The translations under genes were made by a program, and so were the position numbers. Under the pieces are notes generated by a model that worked only from the letters and a program-made list of their open reading frames with translations, did not search any database and had not been told where the DNA came from. A stretch of DNA of 38,528 bases, taken from Alphaproteobacteria bacterium (GTDB lineage Bacteria > Pseudomonadota > Alphaproteobacteria > Bin65). Location of the stretch: assembly GCA_021776685.1 (NCBI GenBank), contig JAJFFJ010000032.1, positions 1 to 38,528 on the forward strand, given 5' to 3'. This document shows positions 21,093-33,826 of the stretch, one piece after another; position 1 is the stretch's first letter, and each line of letters starts with the position of its first letter.

Positions 21093-22505
21093 TCATATCA
21101 GTGCGAGGGCGAACCACGGCACGGCAGCGATCAGCGCCAGCACTGCCAGCATCACCAGGGTGAAGGGCAGGGCGCCCGCGAATATGTCCTGCACCGTGAT
21201 ATCGCGCCGGTCGAGGTTGGCGTGGATGACGAAGCAGGCGATGCCCAAGGGGGGCGTCAGCAATCCCACCTCCACGCCAATCACGGTGATGACGCCGAAC
21301 CAGACTTTCACGTCCGACGGTATTGCGCCCGCATCGGCATAATATTCCGCGAGAATCTCGAGAGCGAACGGCACCGCGATCAGCAGGATCGACAGGGAAT
21401 CCAGAAAAGTACCCAGGATGACCAGCAAAATCAGGTAGGCGAGGATGAACACGGCGAAGCTGAGCTTCGCGTCCGTCGCCCATTCCGCCAGTTCCGCCGG
21501 CAGGTTGGTGGTGGTCAGCATGGCGGAATAAATCGTCGCCGCTACGATCAGGAACAGGATCGCCGCAGTCACCCGCCCTGTCTCCACCACCACATGCCGG
21601 AAATTCTGCCAGTTCAGCTCACGCCGCAGGAGGCCGATGATGATGGCCACCAGCGCGCCCATGGCGCCGGCCTCGTTGGGCGTAAAAAAGCCCATATAGA
21701 TGCCGCCGAGCACTGCGAAGATAAGCACGACTACCGGGATCCACTGTCTGCGCCAGACCCAGAAGAATTCGCCGCCAAATTGCAGGACCGACGACCAGAA
21801 GTTCATGTTCTTGCGGTACCAGACAGGCCAGGGGCTATCCTCTTCGACGACGGCCACCGGTTTCTCGGGCGGCTGATAGTCGATATACACCTTGTCCTTG
21901 CGCCATGTGCTCATGGCCAGGATCAGCCCCATAAAGGCCAGCGCCAACAGCACGCCCGGCAGGATACCGGCGATGAACAGATGGCCGATCGATGTGTCCG
22001 ACACCACGGCATAGATGATGAACAGCAGGCTCGGCGGGATCAGCATCCCCAGCACGGAACTGCCGGCGACCACGCCCACGGCGAAGCGCGGCGTATAGCC
22101 ATGCTTGATCATCTCCGGCACGGCGATGCGGGTGAATACGGATGCTGAGGCGATGGATGTGCCGGTGCAGGCGGCAAAGACCGCATTGGCGGTTACTGTT
22201 GCCATACCGAGGCCGCCGCGGATGCGGTTCAGCATCCAGCTGGCTAGATTGAACGTATCCCGGCCGATACCGGCGGCGGCCACCAGCAAACCCATGAAGA
22301 CGAACAGCGGAATCACGCCCAGCACGTCGTTGGAAATATTATCGTAGGCGGCGCGGGAGATCAGGGCGCCTGCCTTGTTGAAGCCGTCCACTGCCCAAAT
22401 GCCGACGGCCGAAAGCAGCATCAGTGAAATGGCGATATGCATGCCGGTCTGGATCAGCACGAGGCTGCCGACAATGCACAGCAGGCCAATGACAGCGTCG
22501 CTCAT
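21093..22505 (-). CDS. dctM: TRAP transporter large permease (DctM)
   Basis: The 470-aa protein is the 12-helix large TRAP permease. Family segments are visible: GVIPLFVFMGLLVAAAGIGR, VTANAVFAACTGTSIASASV, VVAGSSVLGMLIPPSLLFII, GFFTPNEAGAMGALVA, and near the end VEVGLLTPPLGIACFVI. A hydrophilic insert of about 60 residues (DKVYIDYQPPEKPVAVVEED onward) sits in the middle, making it somewhat longer than usual. The ATG overlaps the DctQ stop (ATGA), so the two are co-translated. No DctP binding protein accompanies the pair. The substrate is not predictable from the sequence. Confidence 0.93.
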   Translation of the reverse strand: MSDAVIGLLCIVGSLVLIQTGMHIAISLMLLSAVGIWAVDGFNKAGALISRAAYDNISNDVLGVIPLFVFMGLLVAAAGIGRDTFNLASWMLNRIRGGLGMATVTANAVFAACTGTSIASASVFTRIAVPEMIKHGYTPRFAVGVVAGSSVLGMLIPPSLLFIIYAVVSDTSIGHLFIAGILPGVLLALAFMGLILAMSTWRKDKVYIDYQPPEKPVAVVEEDSPWPVWYRKNMNFWSSVLQFGGEFFWVWRRQWIPVVVLIFAVLGGIYMGFFTPNEAGAMGALVAIIIGLLRRELNWQNFRHVVVETGRVTAAILFLIVAATIYSAMLTTTNLPAELAEWATDAKLSFAVFILAYLILLVILGTFLDSLSILLIAVPFALEILAEYYADAGAIPSDVKVWFGVITVIGVEVGLLTPPLGIACFVIHANLDRRDITVQDIFAGALPFTLVMLAVLALIAAVPWFALALI

Positions 22506-23122
22506 GTGGAAGTCGTATCGTGAAACAGGTCAGGCTGGACGCGGCCGGTGGCGGCAGCGTGGAAGTCACGGATCGCAAAGATGAGATATTGGATCGCCAT
22601 GATCCCGCTGCCCAGGATGACCAGCGCCATGACTGGCCATTCAGGCAGGGTGAATATGCCTTGCGTGCCTTTTTCGAAGTCCTCGGTATAGGCCTGCCAG
22701 GATTTGGGTGTGATCAGAATTGCGATCATGCCCATCATCCCTGCGCCCAGCAGATTGAACAGACCAAAAAAGCCGACGGCGATGCGCGGACACTTGCGCT
22801 GAACCACACCCATCAACACGTCAGAGGAGACGTGACGGCCTTCGCGCAACGTATTGGCTAATTGCAGGAAGACGATGCCCGGGATCGACAGTTGCACCAT
22901 TTCCTTGGTGGCGGGGATTGGATAGTTGAAGGCTTCGCGCCCAACCACATCTCCAACGACCAGGAACACCATCAGGACAATCCAGATGCTGCCGACGATA
23001 TTCATACCGCTGGTCAGGCGGCCAAACGTCATGCCCTCGAAATGGGAAATACTTGCCAATACACCTTCATCGCGGGGTGTTTCAGGCCTGGCAGTATCGC
23101 CTGTGGTTTCAACTTCGGTCAT
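22502..23122 (-). CDS. dctQ: TRAP transporter small permease (DctQ)
   Basis: The 206-aa protein has four hydrophobic helices, beginning near residue 40 (MNIVGSIWIVLMVFLVVGDV), and the DctQ pattern with VVGREAFNYPIPATKEMVQLS after the first helix. It is the small membrane partner of the following DctM. The N-terminal 35 residues are polar, longer than average. An AT-rich perfect inverted repeat lies about 75 bases upstream and may be an operator. Confidence 0.9.
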   Translation of the reverse strand: MTEVETTGDTARPETPRDEGVLASISHFEGMTFGRLTSGMNIVGSIWIVLMVFLVVGDVVGREAFNYPIPATKEMVQLSIPGIVFLQLANTLREGRHVSSDVLMGVVQRKCPRIAVGFFGLFNLLGAGMMGMIAILITPKSWQAYTEDFEKGTQGIFTLPEWPVMALVILGSGIMAIQYLIFAIRDFHAAATGRVQPDLFHDTTST

Positions 23123-23307: not shown

Positions 23308-23778
23308 CTACTTTTTGGATTCGTAGAAGTTGATGACCTTGACGATATCGGCGGCATCCATGCGGCCGATCGGGCCGTCTGAATAGCTCGCCGCCATCAC
23401 CTTGTTCTCAGCGTTCAGCAGGAACTCCGAGGGCTGGATGATGCCACGGCGGTCTTCCCACCACGAGCCGAGCGCATCCGCATCCGCGCGGGTAACGCTG
23501 TGGCCGAAGGGAAAACCTTTGCCGTCGGCGATCTCGCCGGCCTTCTCGGGGTCGTCAACGCTCGCCGCAACGATCGACGCGCCGAGGCTTTCAAGTTCAC
23601 TTCTGTGTTCTGCGTAGCCGTCCAACTGACGGCGGCAGTAGGGTCACCAGTGACCGCGATAAAACAGGATGACCTTGTAGTTCGTATCAAGGCCCCCTGG
23701 CAGGTCCAACGTTCCGCCGCCCACAAGATTGAGAGTGAGCGCCGGGAAGGTAGAACCACTTCCCAGTTTTTCAGCCAA
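23308..23778 (-). CDS. Peroxiredoxin-like (AhpC/TSA fold) selenoprotein, Sec45 read from in-frame TGA
   Basis: The gene encodes 156 aa if the TGA at 23644-23646 is read as selenocysteine. Upstream of it the frame gives GSTFPALTLNLVGGGTLDLP and YKVILFYRGHW. Downstream it continues, same frame, PYCRRQLDGYAEH to the stop at 23308. Cys-containing relatives have YRGHWCPYCRRQL at this point, so the TGA sits exactly on the peroxidatic residue and gives a U-x-x-C site (Sec45, Cys48). Such thioredoxin-fold proteins reduce peroxides or disulfides. The start is inferred as TTG 23778 with GGAG upstream; an ATG at 23889 would add 37 residues unlike the family. A SECIS-like hairpin follows the TGA, and the sel genes are within 8 kb. 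It is divergent from the first AhpD-like selenoprotein. Confidence 0.88.
23610..23638 (-). promoter_or_regulatory. SECIS-like hairpin of the peroxiredoxin-like gene
   Basis: Immediately after the TGA the mRNA can fold: CTGC pairs with GCAG, and GCCGTC with GACGGC, around an AGTTG loop. The loop starts 16 bases after the TGA and has G at its second position, in line with the bacterial SECIS model (loop 16-37 bases downstream, G in the first two loop positions). Confidence 0.6.
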
Positions 23779-23945
23779 GCTTCCGCTCCGGTTGATGTTG
23801 TGCGGCGAACGCCGCAATCGCTTTGACGTGCCATTGCTGTCAGGGAAAATCAAGAGATTGCCGGCATCTTGGCCTCTTATTGCCCCCAATCGGCCAAGCG
23901 ACTAGGGTGGTGTCATCTATCCTGAGTCATCATAGGAGGGCCCGA

Positions 23946-25073
23946 ATGGGGACCCTGGCATTTGATGCGGCGCCGGTACCGGTGCGGGACGACATCCAGG
24001 CGGCTCTGCCGCGGGTGTGGGCCCGAATTGGCCAGCCGGGCACGTGGTTGACCGCAGAGCAGCGCGTCGCCATCGCCGCAGAGGCGCGTCATGCCCGCAA
24101 TTGCAGCATGTGCGTGGAAATCAAGGAGGCCCTGTCTCCTTATAGCGTCACTGGCGATCATGACCATCTGGATGCGCTGCCCGCGGTCTGGACCGACATC
24201 ATCCACCGCATAATCGCTGATCCCGGCCGCCTGGCCCGGCATTGGTACGACCAACAGGTTCCTGCCGGCATCTCCGATCAGGAATATGTCGAGCTGGTAG
24301 GCGTGGTGGTCTGTACGGTTGGCATTGATACCTTCTGCCGCGGCATTGGCATCGACGCGCCGGATCTGCCATCTGCAGAGGCCGGCGACCCGCAGCCTGA
24401 GACCCCTGAGCATCTGAACCGGGAACTCGCCTGGGTGCCGACGCTGGATCCTCACCACGAGGGCCCGCTGCAGAAAGAATTCTATCCCGGCGGGCCGCCC
24501 AGTGCGGCGCATATCCGGCGGGCGCTCACATACGTGCCCGCCACCGCCCGCAATTTTTGGGATATGGCCAATACGCTCTACATGAATGGCATGCAGATGC
24601 GTGATTTCGACACCGAGTATCGCGCCATCAATCATGCGCAGATTGAACTGGTCGCGGGACGCGTCTCGTCTCTCAATCAGTGCGTCTATTGAACCACCAG
24701 CCATGCGGTTCTGCTCCGTGCGAGCGGCGAACATACTGGTGAAGAATATGACGTAAGCGCTGTGATGGGCGGCGATGTGGCCGGCAGCGGCATTCCCCAC
24801 GCCGAACTTTTGGTGGAGTTTGCCGAGGCCGCGGTGGGTACAGACGCCGCGCGCCTGACCGCGGCGCGCGATGCCGTGATCCAGGCGATGGGCGGCGAGG
24901 CGCTGTGTGATACGGCTGCTGTCGCGGCCTTGTTCAACGCCATCGACCGGGTCGCTGATTCCACCGGCATTCCGCTGGAAGAAGAAAAGGCGGAGCTGTC
25001 TTCCGGCATGCGCGATCAGCTGGGAATCAACCAGTTTGGCGTCATTCCGGATACGGCGGCGGCGGCCGAATAG
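23946..25073 (+). CDS. AhpD-like two-domain selenoprotein 1 (CxxU), Sec249 read from in-frame TGA
   Basis: The 375-aa product contains an in-frame TGA at 24690-24692. Before it the frame encodes 248 residues ending in NQCVY; after it the same frame continues TTSHAVLLRASGEHTGEEYD for another 126 residues. Read as Sec the site is C246-V-Y-U249-T-T-S-H253 with E234 upstream. The Glu/Cys/Cys/His spacing (12, 3, 4) is that of AhpD (E118, C130, C133, H137 in the mycobacterial enzyme), so this is an alkylhydroperoxidase-like redox site with Sec at the second Cys. The N-terminal half has a second redox motif, C53-S-M-C56. AGGAGG precedes the ATG. A SECIS-like hairpin follows the TGA, and a strong terminator follows the gene. 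The enzyme substrate is unknown. Confidence 0.9.
24713..24725 (+). promoter_or_regulatory. SECIS-like hairpin of AhpD-like selenoprotein 1
   Basis: GCTC-CGTGC-GAGC: a 4-bp stem with a 5-base loop whose second base is G. The loop starts 24 bases after the TGA. The paralog has the identical stem at the identical distance. The stem is short, so confidence is moderate. Confidence 0.5.
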
Positions 25074-25096
25074 CCGGCATACCTTATGTGATACAG

Positions 25097-25126
25097 GCCC
25101 CGGCTGCCTATGCAGCCGGGGCTTTT
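25097..25126 (+). terminator. Strong intrinsic terminator after AhpD-like selenoprotein 1
   Basis: GCCCCGGCTGC (25097-25107) and GCAGCCGGGGC (25112-25122) form a perfect 11-bp stem with a CTAT loop, followed by TTTT. It acts on the plus strand. The loop holds the stop codon of the convergent selD gene. Confidence 0.92.
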
Positions 25127-27345
25127 CCTTTGCCAAGGATGATGGCGGGCGAACCAGCAGATCGGGCAACCACACTGCCGATCACCGCAGCGTCGGCACA
25201 GCCCGCGGCCCGCAAGGCGTCGACGCAGGCTTCTGCTTTTTCAGCGGGCACGCCTGCCAGCAGACCACCAGCGGTCTGCGGATCGATCAGCGGCGCCAGA
25301 ACCGGTCTGTCCGCGCTTTCGGCCAGCAGTTTTTGGGCGCTGCGGCTGTTGCCCGGCTGAAGGCTGCTGGCAATGCCCTCTGCGAACAGCGAATCGACGC
25401 CCGCCAGCACGGGTACTGCCCCACAGTCCAGATCAACGGCAACCTTGCCTGCGTCCGCCATCTCGCCCAGATGACCCAGAAGGCCAAAGCCGGTCACATC
25501 GGTTGCCGCGGTTGCGCTGTGGCTGCGCAGAATATCTGCCGCCGCGCCATTGGACTGGAGCATGACATCAATGGCCTGGTCCACCAGGCCGCCAGGCGCC
25601 TGCTGGCGCATGTCTGCGGCAAGAATGACCCCGGCGCCGAGAGGCTTGGTCAGAATAATTGCGTCACCGGGATTGAGGCCGCCTTTGCGCAGCATCTGGT
25701 CCGCCTCTGCAAAGCCGTTGATGGTCAGGCCCAGCGTCAATTCCTGACCCTCTGCGGTATGGCCGCCAATCAGCGTTACCCCCGCTGCATCGAGGGTTTC
25801 CCGGGTGCCCCGCATGATCTGGTTCAGGTCGTCCGCCATCTTGGGATCGGTGGCCAACGGCAACGTGACGGCAGCGAGCGCAGAGTGGGGTGCTGCGCCC
25901 ATGGCGTAGATGTCGCCCAGGCAGTGATTCGCGGCAATCCGGCCGAACAGCCAGGGGTCGTCAATAAAGGCGCGAAACTGGTCCACGGTCTGCACCAGCA
26001 GCTTGCCGGCCGGTACCTGCAGCACAGCCGCATCATCCGGCGCATCGAGGCCGACGAGGATCGCCGGGTCTGGTCTCGCCGCGGGTAGCTGGTCCAGCAC
26101 ATCGTGCAGAACATCCGCCGGTACTTTTGCGCCGCACCCGCCGCAACGCATGGGATCAATGTCCGGGTGAACGCTTTCTTCCGCCGCCATTTCCGGCAGC
26201 TCCTGGTATTTCAGCATCCAGCGCCGGTCGATCCAGTCCTTGAACCGCCAGAGACGGTCGCCCTCCGCCGCGAAGGGTCCCCATGACAGCACCGCCCGCT
26301 TTCCGCCCATGGAGATCAGCGCCATGGTGTTTTTCTGGGGTTTGTAAGGACGAAGGGGCCGGCCGGTCCCGGCGCGGCGCAGGTTTTCCGCCAGCGCCGG
26401 GCCCTGCCTTACCGCATAGACCCCGCTTTTTGGCAGGGCGCGGGCGTCGAAGGCCGCGATATCACCCGCGGCGAAAACCCGGTCGTCTGTGACGCTCTGC
26501 AGGGTTGGACGGACACGCATGAATCCGCGGTCATCCAGGTCGACGCCCGTTTCGGTCAGCCAGGCCGCCGGCGCGCCCGGGGTAATCAGGATGGTCGCGT
26601 CCACGTCCAGCCGTGCGCCATCGGCAAAAATGAGATGGTCTTCCGCGCCGGTGGTGACCGCATTGCCGCCCCGGAAGTCAATGCCCAGCCGTATCAGTGC
26701 GCGGCGCATCCGACTCCGGGTGCCAGCGTTGTGGGTGGGCAGAGGGTCTGCAGTGTCGGACAACAGGGAGACCGTGAAGGAGTCGTGGGAGATGTTCCGG
26801 CTGGCCAACATCCGCCGGGTCCGGTGCGCGAGAGCGAGACAGGCCTCGGTTCCGCCCGCGCCCGCACCTATCACGGCCAGATGGAACCGGCCATTTGAAT
26901 CCCGAATGCGGGATTCGACGTCTTGCCACCGGTCGAGGAACCGATCTACCGGCTTGATGGAAATCGCATGCTCAGCGCCGTCGATGCTGTCCCGGCGGGG
27001 CGTGCTGCCGATATCCAGGCTCAGGTAATCAAACGGCACCGGCGGACGGCCTGCGCACCGGACCAGATTTTCCGGCAAATCGAAGCCTGTCGCCGCGGCA
27101 CGGATGAAGCGCGCGTCAGCAAAGCGGCAGAGCGGGCGCAGGTCGATATAGGCCTCGTCGAGACTGTAGTGGTCGGCGAGATAACCTGGCAGCATGCCGG
27201 AATAGGGTGTTCGCGAATCCGGCGAGATCAATGTCAGCCGCACGCCCGGTTCCGGTTGCATGCCGAATTTTTTCAGCACATGCACATGGGCGTGCCCGCC
27301 GCCCACCAGCACGATATCCGTATGGATGGGGCCTACGGACTTCAA
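25108..27345 (-). CDS. selD: Selenide, water dikinase fused to an N-terminal NADH-dehydrogenase-like oxidoreductase
   Basis: SelD makes selenophosphate from selenide and ATP, the selenium donor for Sec-tRNA. This 745-aa version has an N-terminal flavoprotein domain (VLVGGGHAHVHVL near residue 11, a second nucleotide motif VIGAGAGGTEACLAL near 158, VFAAGDIA near 290) and a C-terminal SelD domain. The SelD active site reads CGGCGAK, with C404 and K407 in the positions of E. coli Cys17 and Lys20, so this SelD uses Cys and not Sec. ATP-site blocks include GLDAPDDAAVL, QTVDQFRAF and ATDVTGFGLLGHL. The TTG at 27345 has GGGAGG eight bases upstream and gives the usual short lead before the first GGG motif; ATG 27369 is an alternative. 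The fusion is a known arrangement. It lies downstream of tRNA-Sec on the same strand. Confidence 0.95.
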   Translation of the reverse strand: MKSVGPIHTDIVLVGGGHAHVHVLKKFGMQPEPGVRLTLISPDSRTPYSGMLPGYLADHYSLDEAYIDLRPLCRFADARFIRAAATGFDLPENLVRCAGRPPVPFDYLSLDIGSTPRRDSIDGAEHAISIKPVDRFLDRWQDVESRIRDSNGRFHLAVIGAGAGGTEACLALAHRTRRMLASRNISHDSFTVSLLSDTADPLPTHNAGTRSRMRRALIRLGIDFRGGNAVTTGAEDHLIFADGARLDVDATILITPGAPAAWLTETGVDLDDRGFMRVRPTLQSVTDDRVFAAGDIAAFDARALPKSGVYAVRQGPALAENLRRAGTGRPLRPYKPQKNTMALISMGGKRAVLSWGPFAAEGDRLWRFKDWIDRRWMLKYQELPEMAAEESVHPDIDPMRCGGCGAKVPADVLHDVLDQLPAARPDPAILVGLDAPDDAAVLQVPAGKLLVQTVDQFRAFIDDPWLFGRIAANHCLGDIYAMGAAPHSALAAVTLPLATDPKMADDLNQIMRGTRETLDAAGVTLIGGHTAEGQELTLGLTINGFAEADQMLRKGGLNPGDAIILTKPLGAGVILAADMRQQAPGGLVDQAIDVMLQSNGAAADILRSHSATAATDVTGFGLLGHLGEMADAGKVAVDLDCGAVPVLAGVDSLFAEGIASSLQPGNSRSAQKLLAESADRPVLAPLIDPQTAGGLLAGVPAEKAEACVDALRAAGCADAAVIGSVVARSAGSPAIILGKGKAPAA

Positions 27346-27483
27346 ACCCCGAGCCTCCCAGGTATGCATCGCCCGTGGCCACAAGCCATTCCTGCTGCCG
27401 GTCGGGAAACCCAGCCCTCAAGCAGCAAAGCGGTAGGGCAAAAATACTCCCCCTCTGGTGGCAGAGCGGCAGCATTGGGGAGG

Positions 27484-27579
27484 TGGCGGAAGAGGGTGGG
27501 AGTCGAACCCACCAAACACGCCTGGCGCGTTCCAACAGGTTTGAAGCCCGCGCGGCCCACCGGGAGCCGATCCCCCTCC
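27484..27579 (-). tRNA. selC: tRNA-Sec (anticodon UCA)
   Basis: A 96-base tRNA gene on the minus strand. The 8-bp acceptor stem pairs GGAGGGGG with CCTCTTCC (two G-U pairs). The 6-bp D stem CGGCTC/GGGCCG, the anticodon loop CTTCAAA with anticodon TCA, a long variable arm and the T arm GTGGG-TTCGACT-CCCAC are all features of bacterial tRNA-Sec. Discriminator G and an encoded CCA finish it. It lies 13 bases after the selB stop and upstream of selD. Confidence 0.96.
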
Positions 27580-27592
27580 AAGGGTGTTGCTA

Positions 27593-29551
27593 TCATGCTA
27601 CCGGGCCATTCGTCGAAGAATTTGTGGCCTCGCCTGCGCCGCCGAATACGGCTGCGGCAGGCTTCAGAATTTCCCGTTCGTTGCCGACACGGCGGGTGAA
27701 GCCGACCTTGTCGAAAAATTCGAGAATTTCGATGCTGAGATTGCGGCCCATGCCGGACCAGTCGCGATAGGCAGCGACGGCGAAACGGCCTTCCGGCAGC
27801 TTGGCCGTCTCGCGCTCGGCCACATCTGCAAGTTCCAACAGGGTAGCAGTGGTCATATAGCGGTTGGCCGACACGCGCATGACCAGGCCCACCCTGGCGG
27901 CGTGTGACAGCAGGCGCGCCAGCTTGTTCTTGTCCTGGCCGAGCTCCTGCGCCAGTTCAAAAATGGTCGGCGGCTTGTCTTCGGCGTCATGCATGATGGT
28001 GCGCGCCTCCTGCCACAGCTTATCGTCCATGCCGGTAAGGCGCGCGGCATGACCGGGCCGGTGCAGCAGGGGGCCGGCGCGCTGGACCTCACCGCGTTGC
28101 ACCAGTTCCCCAACCGCCTGGTCAAACACGGGCTTCAGGGGGCGGGGGGACAGTGCCTGCATAAGCGCCGCCGCGTTGCTCCCGCCTGAGTCGGGCTTGG
28201 CTTTATGCCAGGCATCCAGGGCGTCGATGATGGCCGCACAGAGGGTGTCGAACCGCGCCTGGGTCAGACCATAGCTTTCACCGTCGGCCTGGCAGTGGAC
28301 ATCGACTTGAGCGAAGAGCGTCTCAGCCTCTTCCGAGGTCAGGTTCCAGATGCTTTCCAGGCGATGCAATGGAATGCCGCGCGGCGCAGCGTCCAAAGCT
28401 GCGACGAGAGCTGCAGTGCGGTCGGTCTGGGTCAAAGCGTGAAGCCATGCCAGCCGCTCCGGCCGGGCGCGGCCGCGAGCGGGAGAGAAGGGGTCGACAA
28501 CGCGGCCGCCCCCCACGGTCCGCCGGGCGGACTGGTCCCGCACGATCACCACGTCCCCCGAGCTGGCGGCGACGGGGGTATCCAGCACCAGTTGCACCAG
28601 GCCGGTATCACCGGGCTCGATTGCCTTGCCTTCGAGCAATGCAACTCGGCCGGTGACATCCGCCGTGCCCACATGGATATGGGCCGGCGTCCAATGTTTC
28701 AGGGACCGGGGTTCGTCGTCGAGCACGCGGATTTCGGCATCCAACCGGCGGCTGGTCACATGCGCCCGTGCACCGATGATCCAGTCGCCGCGGCGGATAT
28801 CGTCCTTGGCCGGTCCGGCCAGATTGATGGCGCAACGGTCGCCCTGGCGGGCGGTCTCTGCCGCCTGGTCCTGGACGCGTAGGCCGCGGATGCGGGCGCT
28901 TTCGCCAGATGGTGATACCAAGACGGTTTCGCCCGTGGTGATGGCGCCGGCGTGGACCATGCCTGTCACGACCAGTCCGGCGCCGGCCACGTTGAAAGCG
29001 CGGTCCACCGCCAGCCGGAAATTCCCGGCCGGTGGTTGCGCCTGCCGAGCCTCTGCCAGAGATTTCAGGTGAGCGACAATCTCGGCCACACCCTCGCCAG
29101 TGGTGGATGACACGGGGAATATTTCGGCGCCGGCCAGGCCCATACCGTCGAGTTCGAGCTCGATCTCTTCCATCACTTCCAGCAGCCGGTCCTCCGGGAC
29201 CAGATCGGCCTTGGTGAGGGCGACGAAGCCCCGATCGACGCCGACCAGGTTCAGGATGTCCCGATGTTCACGGGTCTGCGGCATGGGGCCATCGTCGGCG
29301 GCAACGATCAGCATGGCCGCTTCGATGGCGGTGACGCCCGCGAGCATATTGTGGATGAAGCGTTCGTGGCCAGGCACATCGACAAAACCGATCACCGTGC
29401 CGGGGCAAATCTTTGTGTCGTAGACGAAGCCCAGATCGATTGTCAGCCCGCGCTTTTTCTCCTCCGGCAGCCGGTCGGCGTCCACGCCGGTCAACGCCTT
29501 GATCAGCGAAGTCTTGCCATGGTCCACATGGCCGGCGGTGGCGATAATCAT
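27593..29551 (-). CDS. selB: Selenocysteine-specific elongation factor SelB
   Basis: SelB is the GTPase that carries Sec-tRNA to the ribosome at UGA codons with a SECIS. The 652-aa protein starts [20 protein letters not shown] (P-loop residues 7-14), then has [17 protein letters not shown] and ALTKADLV, the G motifs with the SelB-type variations. EF-Tu-like beta-barrel domains follow ([21 protein letters not shown]). The C-terminal 250 or so residues are the winged-helix repeats that bind SECIS RNA, ending with [20 protein letters not shown]. The ATG overlaps the selA stop (ATGA). Length is normal for the family. Confidence 0.97.
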
Positions 29552-30960
29552 GAGCGTTTCCTGCCCGGCAAGTTGAGCTCACCCAGTTGGCTGATAAAGC
29601 CGGCGGCATCTTCCAGGCAGCGGAGGTCCAGCCACAACGCGCCATCGGAAATCCGGCCGATCACCGGCACAGGCAAGGCACGGAATGCGGCTGCCAGCCG
29701 GTTGAGCCAGCCGCCTTTACCCGATGTGGGATGGATGACTACGGCCCGGCTTGGCAGCAGGTCCACGGGCAGGGCGCCGCTGCCGATCTGGCTGTTGCAG
29801 GCGGAAGTCTCAACCCGGGCCGCATCGCCGAAAACGTCAGCCAGTGCCGGTGCGACCTCGTCGGCCACAGCGTCGATTTCCTCCAGGGGGCGGGTCAGCA
29901 AACGCAGCACCGGCACTTCCTGCTGCAACCGCTCCGGCGCTTCGTAGAGGCGCAGGGTGGCGGAGAGGGCGGCGATCACCAGCTTGTCCAGACGCAGGGC
30001 GCGTTTCATGGGGTTTTTCTTGATCTTCGCCACCAGGTCGGCGCGACCTGCAATGATACCCGCCTGCGGTCCGCCCAACAGTTTGTCGCCGCTGAAGGTG
30101 ACAAGGTCCGCACCATCAGCAAGGGTTTCCTGCGCCGTGCGTTCGTGGGGCAGGCCCCACTGCGCCAGGTCCACCAGCATGCCGCTGCCGAGGTCGACCA
30201 CAAAGGGCAAGCCGTGGTTGTGGGACAGCGCGGCAAGTTCGGCCTCCGGCACAGCTTTGGTGAAGCCCTGGACTTCGTAGTTGCTGGTGTGAATTTTCAT
30301 CACAAGCGCCACACGGTCACTGACCGCTTCGGCGAAATCTTTGAGGTGGGTGCGGTTGGTCGTGCCCACTTCGTGCAGCTTGGCTCCGGCGCGGGCCATG
30401 ACGTCGGGGATCCGGAACGCGCCACCGATTTCCACCAGCTCCCCGCGGCTGACCAGCACTTCCTTGCGCCGGGCCAGGGTGTTCAGGACGAGCAGGACGG
30501 CGGCGGCGTTGTTGTTGACCACGGTCGCCGCCTCCGCGCCGGTCAAGCGACAGATCTGCGCTTCCACGTGGCTGTCCCGATCGCCGCGCCGGCCTGTGGC
30601 AAGGTCGAATTCCAGATTGGTCGGCTGTGCGGCGGCAGCGGCAACTTCCGCGATCACGCTCTCCGGCATGATGGCGCGGCCCAAGTTTGTATGAATGACC
30701 GTGCCGGTCAGATTAAACACTGGCCTGAGGGACGGCGAAAACCGCGCCGCCAGCAGCGCTTCGATCCGCTGACCCAGAATTGCCGGCTTCGCCAGGTCAT
30801 CCGCATTGGCGCCCTTGGCGATTTCATCGCGTGCGGTGGCCAGCATCGCGCGGGCGGCGTCTTTGGCGGCTGTCTCCCCATAGGCGGCGGTCAGCGCCTT
30901 GACCTGCGGCCAAGCCAACAGCCGGTCCAGCGCCGGCAGCTTTTTGAAGTCGGCGCTCAT
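29548..30960 (-). CDS. selA: L-seryl-tRNA(Sec) selenium transferase SelA
   Basis: SelA is the PLP enzyme that converts Ser-tRNA-Sec to Sec-tRNA-Sec with selenophosphate. The 470-aa protein has the family blocks [15 protein letters not shown] (about residues 82-96), [15 protein letters not shown] (149-163), a DLGSG segment at 256-260 and the PLP lysine K293 in [14 protein letters not shown]. Its N-terminal helical domain (1-75), [11 protein letters not shown] onward, is typical of tRNA-binding SelA. It is the first gene of selA-selB-tRNA-Sec-selD, 157 bases downstream of the second AhpD-like selenoprotein, with which it may share transcripts. Confidence 0.97.
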
Positions 30961-31012
30961 CGGATAGGACTTTCAGGTTCGCCGTGTCTGGAGCAGGCGC
31001 CAGCAGGCCGGT

Positions 31013-31027
31013 TGGCGTGCGACGCCA
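31013..31027 (-). promoter_or_regulatory. SECIS-like hairpin in the selA leader
   Basis: On the minus strand TGGCGT-CGC-ACGCCA forms a 6-bp stem with a 3-base loop having G in second position, about 53 bases before the selA ATG. In E. coli a SECIS-like element in the selAB leader binds SelB and represses the operon; this could be an equivalent. Function is inferred only. Confidence 0.3.
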
Positions 31028-31117
31028 GAAGGAGGTGGACAGGGGTCCATCTCTTATGGGGATTACCGATGAGTAGCGAGTTCTGGGAGTTGCAAGCCTC
31101 CGCGACGCAGCTTCCGC

Positions 31118-32227
31118 CTATTCGGCCGCCACGTTCAGAGCGTCCAGGCCAAGCTCGGCGCGCATGGCAACGGTAAGCTCCGCCTTCTTGTCTTCCAGCG
31201 GCAGGCCAGTGGCGTCTGCTGCGCGAGGATAGGCATTGAAGGCGGCAATGGTCGCTGCCGCATCCACCATGGCGTCCTCGCCGGCGGTCTCGGTGATCTC
31301 CGCGCGCAGTTCGGCCATGCGCGGCAGGTCGCGCACCATCATCGCCTCGCAGAAGGCGTTCATCAGCGCGCCGTCCGTCACCGTCGCGGCATCGACCGTT
31401 CCTTCGGTCACTTCCCGAAGATCGTAGTCCTGTCCGGTGTCCTGGCCGCTCATCCTGAGCCGGGCTGCATGGCTGACGGTTCAATAGTAGCATCCCAGCA
31501 ACATGGACGCGCGCGCCGCCAGAAACTCCATCTGCGCCCGATTGATGCCCCGTGTCAGTCCATCCAGCTCATGGAGGCGCGGATCCTCCATATAGAGCTG
31601 GTTCATCACCTCCCAAAAACGGCGCGTCTCCTGCGGACGGAGCGTCAGCGACCGGCGGATGTAGAAGTGCGAATCGTCGTCGTAGAAATCGGCGAAGTCG
31701 GCGGCGGCGTCTTCTGGTGCAATGGTCGACACCCAGCCAGGTCCCGGGCTGGCGTCAGCGCGCCGGTATCGGTCCGGAATTCCAGGTTTGGCCTCGGGCA
31801 GGTCCGGCGCGGTCATACCGATACCCAACGCGAAAGTATCAATCACCGTGGTGATGATGGTGACGCTGACAATCTCGATATATTCGTCTTCGGCCATGCC
31901 GCCGGCCAGATGGTCACGCAGCCAACTCTCGGTAAGGCGTCCAGTGTCCGTCACCACCCGATGGATCACATCCACCCAGGCTTCCGGGAGCTCGTCCAGA
32001 TGGTCATGCTCGCCCTCAACCGCATAGGGCGACAGGGCGTCTTTGCGGTCCCGGCAAATCGCGCAAGACCAGGCGTTTCGTGCCTCCCGGGCCACGGCCA
32101 GGCGCTTCTCGCCATCCAGCCAGTCGCCTTTCTGCCCGAGTTGCTCAAGCGCGACGCCCAGCGCCGGCACAAGTTCCGGTCTGATGGTTACGGGCGCATC
32201 TGCAAACGGGTTTGGCACGCGGGTCAT
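31118..32227 (-). CDS. AhpD-like two-domain selenoprotein 2 (CxxU), Sec249 read from in-frame TGA
   Basis: This is a 369-aa paralog of the selenoprotein at 23946-25073. The in-frame TGA at 31481-31483 falls at codon 249, the same position as in the paralog. The site reads C246-Y-Y-U249-T-V-S-H253 with E234 12 residues before C246, matching the AhpD catalytic set. Before the TGA the two proteins share blocks such as KDALSPYAVEGEHDHLDELP versus KEALSPYSVTGDHDHLDALP. After it they share SHA, a Gly-rich charged turn, an acidic helix and a similar Ala/Glu C-terminus (AAE). The N-terminal half carries C55-A-I-C58. A SECIS-like hairpin follows the TGA. It lies directly upstream of selA on the same strand. 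No signal peptide is seen; it is probably cytoplasmic. Confidence 0.9.
31445..31465 (-). promoter_or_regulatory. SECIS-like hairpin of AhpD-like selenoprotein 2
   Basis: GCTC-AGGAT-GAGC (31448-31460) with an outer GCC/GGC helix across a two-base bulge. The loop has G at its second position and starts 24 bases after the TGA, exactly as in the paralog. Confidence 0.55.
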
Positions 32228-32282: not shown

Positions 32283-33104
32283 TTACCGCTTTATGGGTTT
32301 GAAGAGAAGCTCGCCATTTACCTTGTAGGCGGCGATGCGGCGGCGGCCGTCCGATGATAACAGCCAGGCGATCAGCGCCCGCGCTTTCGTCACCCGTATA
32401 TGGGGGTGCCGCTTGGGATTGACGACGATGGCGGCGTAGATGTTGTTCAGCGCCGGGTCGCCGGCCACCAGAATGGCGAGGCTGCGCCGGTTCCGAAAGG
32501 ACAGCCAGGTGCCTCTGTCGGTCAGGGTGTGGGCGCGGAGTTCTGCCGCCATGTTGAGGGTGCGCCCCATGCCCGCGCCGGCTTTGCGATACCAGCTGGA
32601 TTTAATTTTCCAGGGCGTCAAGCCTGCCCGTTGCCAGAGCGACACCTCCCGTCCATGGGTGCCGCTGCGGTCACCGCGGGACAGGAAGAGCGCTTTTCGC
32701 GCGGCGAGCCGACGCAAGGCAGGCGTAATCAGGCGCCCTTTGATGCCCGCCGGGTCGCCCGACGGGCCGATCAGCACAAAGTCGTTATACATGATCTCCG
32801 TGCGCCCGATGCCGTGACCGCCCTTCACGAACCGGTCTTCCGCAGGGCGGTGATGGACCAGCACCATGTCCACGTCACCATTGCGACCAAGTCGAATCGC
32901 CTGACCCGTGCCGACCGCGATCACATGCACCTTGATGCCGGACTGCTTTGTGAAGACCGGCAGGATCGCCGCCAACAAGCCGGAATTGTCGAGGGATGTG
33001 GTGGAGGCGATGCGCAGGGTATCCGCGCGGGCGGCATCCGCCATGAGGCAAACGGAAAACAGTGCCAGCGCAATTCCGCGGACGTGGCGGCTGGTTTGAA
33101 GCAT
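32283..33104 (-). CDS. tupA: Tungstate-type ABC transporter substrate-binding protein (TupA-like)
   Basis: The 273-aa exported protein starts MLQTSRHVRG and has a signal peptide (LALFSVCLMADAARA, cut before DTLRIAS). It carries the TupA hallmarks STTSLDNSGLL, VGTGQAIRLGRNGDVDMVLV, HHRPAEDRFV, YNDFVLIGPS and FLSRGDRSGTHGRE. TupA binds tungstate with very high affinity in the periplasm; molybdate or vanadate cannot be excluded. The start at 33104 is chosen for the signal peptide; the upstream open frame is the antiparallel shadow of tupB. It lies five bases after the tupB stop. No ATPase gene (tupC) follows; the next gene is the AhpD-like selenoprotein. Confidence 0.9.
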   Translation of the reverse strand: MLQTSRHVRGIALALFSVCLMADAARADTLRIASTTSLDNSGLLAAILPVFTKQSGIKVHVIAVGTGQAIRLGRNGDVDMVLVHHRPAEDRFVKGGHGIGRTEIMYNDFVLIGPSGDPAGIKGRLITPALRRLAARKALFLSRGDRSGTHGREVSLWQRAGLTPWKIKSSWYRKAGAGMGRTLNMAAELRAHTLTDRGTWLSFRNRRSLAILVAGDPALNNIYAAIVVNPKRHPHIRVTKARALIAWLLSSDGRRRIAAYKVNGELLFKPIKR

Positions 33105-33109
33105 AGGTC

Positions 33110-33826
33110 CTAGATCAGTCTGATTTGCTGCCGGTCGCGCCCGAATTCTCGCACCGAATAGATTGCGCCGTTCAGCACCAGGGCGATCAACAGCAGCACA
33201 ATGCCGAGGCCGATCGCCAGCGCCAGATTGCCCTTGGAGGTTTCCAACGCAATGGTCGTGGTCATGACCCGGGTATGTTCGGCAATGTTGCCGCCGACGA
33301 TGATCACAGCACCGACCTCGGCGATGGCGCGGCCAAAGCCGGCGGCGGCGGCGGTGGCCAGGGCGCCCCGGGTTTCCCAAAGAAGCGTGCCCATGGCCTG
33401 ACGCCGCCCGGCGCCGAGCGCGCGGAGCTGCTCGCCCGTATCCGTCCAGGCGCTTTCAATAATCTGGCGGGTGAGCGCTGTGACAATGGGGAAAATCAGA
33501 ATGGTCTGGGCGATCACCATGGCGGTTGGCGTGAACAGCAGTTCCAGGTCGCCCAGCGGCCCGGCGCGGGACAGTGCCAGATAGACCACCAGGCCCACCA
33601 CCACTGGCGGCAGCCCCATCATGGTGTTGACCAGCACGATCAGTATCCGCCGGCCAGGAAAGCGCCCGATCGCCAGGGCGGCGCCTGCAGGCAGGCCCAT
33701 GAGGCAGGCAATGGCCAGGGCGATGAGGCTGACCTGCAGCGACAGCAAGACGATACGCCAAAGCTGGGGATCGAAACTGAACAGCAGACTGAGCGCGGCG
33801 CCAAAGCCGCTGTCGGTCGAAGACAT
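33110..33826 (-). CDS. tupB: Tungstate-type ABC transporter permease (TupB-like)
   Basis: The 238-aa inner-membrane permease has about six helices and the binding-protein-dependent transport signature: TDTGEQLRALGAGRRQAMGT is the EAA-loop region that contacts the ATPase. Other TupB-like segments are TMMGLPPVVVGLVVYLALSR and GFGRAIAEVGAVIIVGGNI. It sits immediately upstream of tupA. The ATPase partner is not encoded here and must come from elsewhere in the genome, if the system works. Confidence 0.9.
   Translation of the reverse strand: MSSTDSGFGAALSLLFSFDPQLWRIVLLSLQVSLIALAIACLMGLPAGAALAIGRFPGRRILIVLVNTMMGLPPVVVGLVVYLALSRAGPLGDLELLFTPTAMVIAQTILIFPIVTALTRQIIESAWTDTGEQLRALGAGRRQAMGTLLWETRGALATAAAAGFGRAIAEVGAVIIVGGNIAEHTRVMTTTIALETSKGNLALAIGLGIVLLLIALVLNGAIYSVREFGRDRQQIRLI

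Follow-up and report, generated by a model that had tools for sequence, protein, structure and literature searches.

Selenocysteine-containing AhpD-like proteins with a predicted Sestrin-like architecture and a neighbouring UxxC redoxin at the selenocysteine machinery of an alphaproteobacterial genome

An AhpD-related 'hypothetical protein 1' was first seen in the Sargasso Sea selenoproteome (PMC1088965), and a 2026 review lists it under NF041238 (AhpD_rel_CFYUT) as 'AhpD-related protein (hypothetical protein 1, Sargasso Sea metagenome)', with a CxxU motif (PMC13188914). Besides this family, a pair of neighbouring peroxiredoxin-like (Prx-like) and AhpD-like selenoproteins and a fusion of an NDH-like domain with SelD have been described (PMC1088965, PMC2398784, PMC13188914), and fused AhpD dimers are known in bacteria from Comamonas, Corynebacterium and the E. 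coli protein YciW (PMC11429811). Here we analyze a window of 38,528 nucleotides (contig JAJFFJ010000032.1, positions 1 to 38,528, of assembly GCA_021776685.1), which is contig 84 of the 158 contigs of a 4.5-Mb genome whose nearest named and same-family relatives are uncultured Rhodospirillaceae and Alphaproteobacteria assemblies. Between positions 23308 and 32227 the gene order is redoxin (-), AhpD-A (+), NDH-selD, tRNA-Sec, selB, selA and AhpD-B, the last five all on the minus strand. A first reading of this DNA made from its letters (the sequence-only reading) had proposed that two AhpD-like proteins, each with an N-terminal CxxC (residues 53-56 or 55-58) and a C-terminal CxxU, enclose the selenocysteine (Sec) machinery, with a third Sec protein divergent from AhpD-A; both the motifs and the arrangement were confirmed, the latter by profile matches, ARAGORN and Rfam (Table 1). 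We suggest, at a probability of about one half, that AhpD and the redoxin form a putative Sec-based, AhpD/AhpC-like module for peroxide or disulfide reduction.

Like 'hypothetical protein 1', both AhpD proteins contain CxxU, and they are members of NF041238 far above its cut-off of 175 (470.5 bits for AhpD-A and 412.1 for AhpD-B; PMC1088965, PMC13188914), with the C-x-Y-U-T motif of that family present as CVYUT and CYYUT, respectively. Pfam CMD remained below its cut-off of 23 (22.9 and 22.4 bits), TIGR00777 (ahpD) gave 12.0 and 14.2 bits with respect to a cut-off of 191.95, and Pfam PA26 (Sestrin) had no match at E-values up to 1; judged by sequence, the two proteins are thus not Sestrins. 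The predicted structure of AhpD-A (predicted local distance difference test, pLDDT, 90.9; predicted template modelling score, pTM, 0.92) nevertheless superposed best on human Sestrin2, over 239 residues of both halves (Z 17.0, root-mean-square deviation 3.4 Å), while single AhpDs reached Z values of at most 12.5, mainly over the C half, and unrelated chains of at most 4.4. Viral structural relatives were considered and rejected, none being convincing. When the two halves were aligned by hhalign, C53 fell on C246 and C56 on U249, with a P of 5e-4 but a low HHalign probability (30%). The hhalign alignment, the model and the Sestrin2 match over both halves all indicate two AhpD units per chain instead of one. 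Since the model fits Sestrin2 best, AhpD-A and AhpD-B are predicted to be fused AhpD dimers with the domain layout of Sestrin, in which the AhpD site survives in the C half, Sec standing for its second Cys. In this half E234, C246, Y248, H253 and the C/U249 column were invariant among 98 aligned members, and their spacing is identical to that of the active-site residues E74, C86, Y88, C89 and H93 of the AhpD-family enzyme YP_296737.1 (PMC4674687). The full pattern of an AhpD site (Glu, 12 residues on Cys-x-Tyr-Cys, and His 4 past the second Cys) was found in the C half only, Sec taking the place of the second Cys.

Human Sestrin2 (5dj4, 5t0n, 5cuf) shows the same arrangement of two fused AhpD-like halves, but identity is about 9%, and the active Cys of Sestrin lies in the N half, where the second Cys is Leu, whereas the Sec site described here lies in the C half. 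The Comamonas and Corynebacterium dimers are also fused and have two cysteines in the C half, but their N half is devoid of Cys, in contrast to the CxxC and conserved His found here, and no Sec has been reported in these two dimers or in YciW (PMC11429811). Fused Sestrin-like AhpD dimers being already known in bacteria, the family therefore appears to be a Sec-containing variant of a known architecture. With the AhpD/AhpC system of Mycobacterium tuberculosis the locus shares the AhpD-type catalytic residues, here in the C half, and a redoxin with the AhpC fold, but in that system the AhpD chain comprises one unit and contains CxxC, and AhpC has a classical Prx site.

The UGA codons of the island genes are real Sec codons. 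In the AhpD family UGA occupied the Sec codon in 98 of 98 non-redundant loci scored automatically and in one further locus (L149) read by eye, in 31 of 31 copies of ten relatives, and in all 38 copies carried by 19 genomes of a 289-genome class sample, three sets that overlap. No Cys form of the family was detected in the translated loci or in the class sample; a 398-genome phylum sample was uninformative in this respect, its sole carrier being the present genome, and a few Cys homologues were reported in 2005 (PMC1088965). Downstream of the UGA (+21 to +37), a codon-level test on 99 members revealed fixed silent sites in a hairpin resembling a selenocysteine insertion sequence (SECIS): the Leu257 codon was CTC in 97/99 members (23% elsewhere in AhpD-family genes), the Arg258 codon was CGT in 76/93 (11% elsewhere in the genes, where CGC would be commonest) and the Ser260 codon was AGY in all 97 (41% elsewhere). 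The corresponding Fisher p values, from 1e-29 to 1e-57, ignore shared ancestry, although the members have a median pairwise identity of only 45% at the protein level. Folding energy (minimum free energy) of the RNA following the UGA did not differ from that of same-protein recodings (mean z -0.07), and the hairpin is therefore visible by the codon-level test and not by folding energy alone. As for the redoxin, UGA-bearing matches occurred exclusively in genomes with selB (21/21), whereas UGA-free redoxins were found in genomes with and without it, and its close relatives in ten genomes carry UGA. The features by which bacterial selenoprotein genes are recognized are all present: a UGA in frame, a SECIS-like hairpin after it and, in the same genome, selA, selB, selC and selD.

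The neighbour pair described earlier resembles the present one in that a Sec redoxin adjoins an AhpD-like selenoprotein, but its 'AhpD-like 2' belongs to pfam02627 and may not be NF041238, and it was seen in a single read pair with no sel genes reported. We found AhpD and Sec-redoxin genes adjacent in nine loci and in four arrangements: divergent in the window, L065 (whose contig is also L093 of the genome-contig scan) and L152, with AhpD preceding the redoxin in L104 and L126, with the redoxin preceding AhpD in L202, L203 and L212, and convergent in L128. In the window the two genes are transcribed apart from a gap of 167 bases. Seven of the nine pairs (window, L065, L104, L126, L202, L203, L212) were located at Sec-machinery genes, and in L126 tRNA-Sec, AhpD and redoxin are consecutive, separated by about 30 bp or less; no Sec-machinery genes were found in the stretches fetched for L128 and L152. 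For six pairs (window, L065, L104, L126, L128, L152) the probability of lying within 2 kb by chance was about 7e-10, under a uniform model that ignores kinship. Gene content agreed with gene neighbourhood in supporting the link that the sequence-only reading had drawn between the two proteins. In the class sample selB was present in all 19 genomes with AhpD and in all 21 with a Sec-redoxin, and among its 41 selB genomes a Sec-redoxin was found in 17 of the 19 with AhpD versus 4 of the 22 without (Fisher p=6e-6) or, counted by family, in 9/11 versus 3/11 (p 0.03), in a count that favours finding them, as the profile included redoxins beside AhpD from three of the sampled genomes. Restricting the count to the window redoxin, which missed distant redoxins, gave 12/19 versus 1/22 (p 9e-5; by family, p 0.06). 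Since it recurs in several bacterial families, the sel-adjacent combination of AhpD and redoxin is probably a real system, with a putative antioxidant or thiol-redox role.

The same linkage could reflect packaging only: selenoprotein genes, being of no use in the absence of the Sec machinery, would stay by it and spread with it, and AhpD and redoxin would perform separate jobs. Every Sec client requires selA, selB, selC and selD, the majority of AhpD paralogues are remote from sel and showed no conserved partner above background, and in L204 and L205 a redoxin stands beside sel without AhpD. We nonetheless regard this explanation as rather unlikely, because the two genes are adjacent also where the fetched stretch holds no sel genes (L128, L152) and in four arrangements, and because their co-occurrence exceeds what a common need for SelB would produce. 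A role in selenium supply or protection, in which the sel-linked AhpD and redoxin would serve SelD by reducing selenite or selenodisulfides, or would shield selenide, would agree with the position of the AhpD-A clade, which adjoins sel genes in 11 of 12 members (the twelfth, L072, showed no sel gene in a fetched stretch of 11.7 kb), and with the NDH-like redox domain borne by SelD. It appears improbable, as distant paralogues share the active site without being linked to sel, and both proteins are absent from many selB genomes. Genes for SDR proteins, acyl-CoA ligase, enoyl-CoA hydratase and acyl-CoA dehydrogenase were considered as further AhpD neighbours and rejected, their recurrence not being clearly above that in 20 control regions of the same genomes.

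The redoxin matched PF00578 (AhpC-TSA) with 56.9 bits (cut-off 26) on a longer reading frame, and its TTG start lines up with the ATG starts of relatives; no cut-off was reached in an NCBIfam scan. Its model (pLDDT 94) had M. tuberculosis AhpC as top Foldseek match, with many Prx tied. In the segment FYRGHWUPYC, Arg stands for Pro and Sec for the catalytic Thr, while Cys48 aligns with the Bcp cysteine. The earlier designation as a peroxiredoxin thus holds for the fold (AhpC/Prx) and fails for the catalytic site, and the protein is similar to the class called 'Prx-like, UxxC' in earlier work (PMC1088965). In a redoxin of L126 (2087-2557, +) two consecutive in-frame UGAs were observed (GHUUPFC), UGA also replacing the conserved Trp before Sec, either as a double-Sec protein or as an error.

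If AhpD and the redoxin act as a module, the C-half site (Glu234, Cys246, Tyr248, Sec249, His253) would cycle between the Cys-SH/Sec-SeH form and a Cys246-Sec249 selenenylsulfide, and AhpD with the adjacent AhpC-fold UxxC selenoprotein would represent a selenium-based form of the AhpC/AhpD pair. One partner would reduce organic hydroperoxides or oxidised thiols and the other would regenerate it; we infer the peroxide or disulfide chemistry, the substrates, the direction of the electrons and the physical contact between the partners. Sestrin2 and M. tuberculosis AhpD are both able to reduce cumene hydroperoxide (PMC4674687). Only tentatively do we extend this to a full selenium-based equivalent of the AhpC/AhpD peroxidase pair. 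In uncultured bacteria, a Sestrin-fold selenoenzyme, acting as reductant or peroxidase, and an AhpC-fold selenoprotein as its partner would then be inherited jointly with the Sec machinery and make up a compact antioxidant cassette. Several observations weigh against a dedicated AhpD/redoxin module. The redoxin does not have the classical peroxidatic motif of Prx (PxxxT/SxxC; PxxxTxxC), two AhpD genomes of the class sample show no Sec-redoxin, and in a related genus of the same family no AhpD copy shares its contig with the Sec-redoxin. Identity to the window redoxin is as low as 24-27% for the paired redoxins of L202, L203 and L212, so that 'the partner' is not one orthologous gene. To our knowledge, no member of the AhpD family has a known activity or interaction, and the AhpD fold is also that of non-peroxidases such as CMD and the debrominase Bmp8. 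Bmp8 shares the predicted fold (Z 11.9) and at least one carrier of the family is apparently sponge-derived, as would suit a reductive dehalogenase-like enzyme acting on halogenated metabolites with CxxU used as are the Bmp8 cysteines; this is, however, very improbable, the Bmp8 score being no better than that of other single AhpDs and no dehalogenation genes having been found in the gene context.

A separate question is the role of the N-terminal CxxC, which the sequence-only reading had proposed as a dithiol from which electrons could reach CxxU within one polypeptide. That the halves align as homologous, with the cysteines of CxxC on C246 and U249, and that both motifs are highly conserved would favour such a relay. 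On the other hand, the N half has no equivalents of the Glu (E-12), Tyr (Y+2) and His (H+7) of the AhpD site, and CxxC, H72 and H87 occurred together in 106 of 110 aligned members and were all absent in the remaining four (L054, L058, L196, L197), with no mixtures. These four, which may stem from a single loss in one clade, keep the Sec site; like Sestrin they have a single active half, but it is the other one. Moreover, each half of a fused AhpD dimer has its own site, and the relay now appears unlikely. The missing proton-relay residues and the tie to two His suggest that CxxC may instead be a metal or structural site, with C53, C56, H72 and H87 possibly forming a Cys2His2 zinc or iron site of structural or regulatory function and redox chemistry confined to the C half, an option compatible with the proposed AhpD/redoxin module. 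D92 and R95 are likewise conserved in those CxxC members that were displayed, whereas L054 and L058 have other residues there (L196 retains D92). Weighing against metal binding, the all-or-none pattern probably goes back to one loss in one clade. From the alignment, the N-terminal CxxC is best read as a conserved site separate from the C-half active site, and metal binding seems no less likely than an electron relay.

The island is not 'self-contained', as it had first been described, because three further copies of the AhpD family (five in total) and a second UGA-containing redoxin, distant from the window copy (G000:C76:16240-16752), are located elsewhere in the genome, which has at least seven selenoprotein genes. 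AhpD-A and AhpD-B are 42% identical and are old paralogues with orthologues in other genera; in a related genus the orthologues of AhpD-B lie away from sel, and two AhpDs bracketing the Sec machinery were seen in this genome only. The selD of the window is the described NDH-SelD fusion, with CxxC in the SelD site (PMC2398784). Terminator-like hairpins were no more numerous in the region than expected by chance, and a plasmid (mobile) origin was rejected, as no plasmid match was found. Sec formate dehydrogenase as main Sec client was likewise rejected, the single FdhA above cut-off having no UGA; tungstate ABC transporter genes (tupA-like, tupB-like; 32286-33826) are nevertheless present, on the same strand as AhpD-B and directly upstream of it. 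The window also holds two separate TRAP transporter DctM genes (20-2275 and 21093-23122), with an Ldh_2 dehydrogenase near the second. Among the other AhpD-family loci, L119 (10001-12201) has two selenoprotein genes of the family in direct tandem with about 40 bp between them; past a stop codon, a metallo-beta-lactamase-like reading frame comes after the second. In a group among L102, L105-L112 and L161 the AhpD-family gene adjoins a divergent PEBP-family gene within a recurring block of cell-wall genes (SLT_2 lytic transglycosylase, RlpA/SPOR).

Table 1. Positions in the window of the selenoprotein genes, their Sec codons and hairpins, and the Sec-machinery genes.
Feature	Coordinates	Strand	Details
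Redoxin selenoprotein (UxxC, AhpC/Prx fold)	23308..23778	-	156 aa; Sec45 in WUPYC; TTG start
Redoxin UGA (Sec) codon	23644..23646	-	in-frame
Redoxin SECIS-like hairpin, candidate	23610..23638	-	GU in apical loop; best local hairpin, -14.7 kcal/mol
AhpD-A, NF041238 selenoprotein, fused AhpD-like halves (predicted)	23946..25073	+	375 aa; Sec249; ATG start; GGAGG upstream
AhpD-A N-terminal C53xxC56	24102..24113	+	96/98 in family alignment; co-varies with H72 and H87
AhpD-A UGA (Sec249)	24690..24692	+	in CVYU; C246xxU249
AhpD-A SECIS-like hairpin	24711..24727	+	+21 to +37 from UGA; silent-site conservation, 99 members
Terminator-like hairpin between convergent AhpD-A and selD	25095..25124	.	13-bp stem
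selD with N-terminal NDH-like (Pyr_redox_2) fusion	25108..27384	-	758 aa; CGGC in SelD site; TIGR00476 301 bits, TIGR03169 421 bits
selC, tRNA-Sec	27484..27579	-	anticodon UCA; ARAGORN; Rfam 68.5 bits (cut-off 47)
selB	27593..29551	-	TIGR00475 403.8 bits
selA	29548..30960	-	TIGR00474 583.9 bits
AhpD-B, NF041238 selenoprotein	31118..32227	-	369 aa; C55xxC58; C246xxU249
AhpD-B UGA (Sec249)	31481..31483	-	in CYYU
AhpD-B SECIS-like hairpin position	31446..31462	-	AGG loop variant

The remark of the sequence-only reading that no pathway had been described for this set of genes still stands, although its components, namely the AhpD family, the UxxC redoxins, one neighbour pair and the NDH-SelD fusion, were already known. 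In the literature searched we found no description of the fold, partner, sel linkage or second CxxC of NF041238, nor any paper treating Sestrin jointly with selenoproteins. New with respect to that literature are the predicted Sestrin architecture with Sec, the recurrence of the sel-linked pair across families, the silent-site evidence for a SECIS in the AhpD family and the coupled CxxC/His site of the N half. An unexplained selenoprotein family hence gains a predicted fold, an active site and a likely partner. A bacterial enzyme of predicted Sestrin shape, with a Cys or Sec motif in both halves, may be useful for understanding how AhpD dimers became Sestrins, and the lack of any Cys copy among the AhpD copies examined makes the family well suited to the question of why selenium has been kept.

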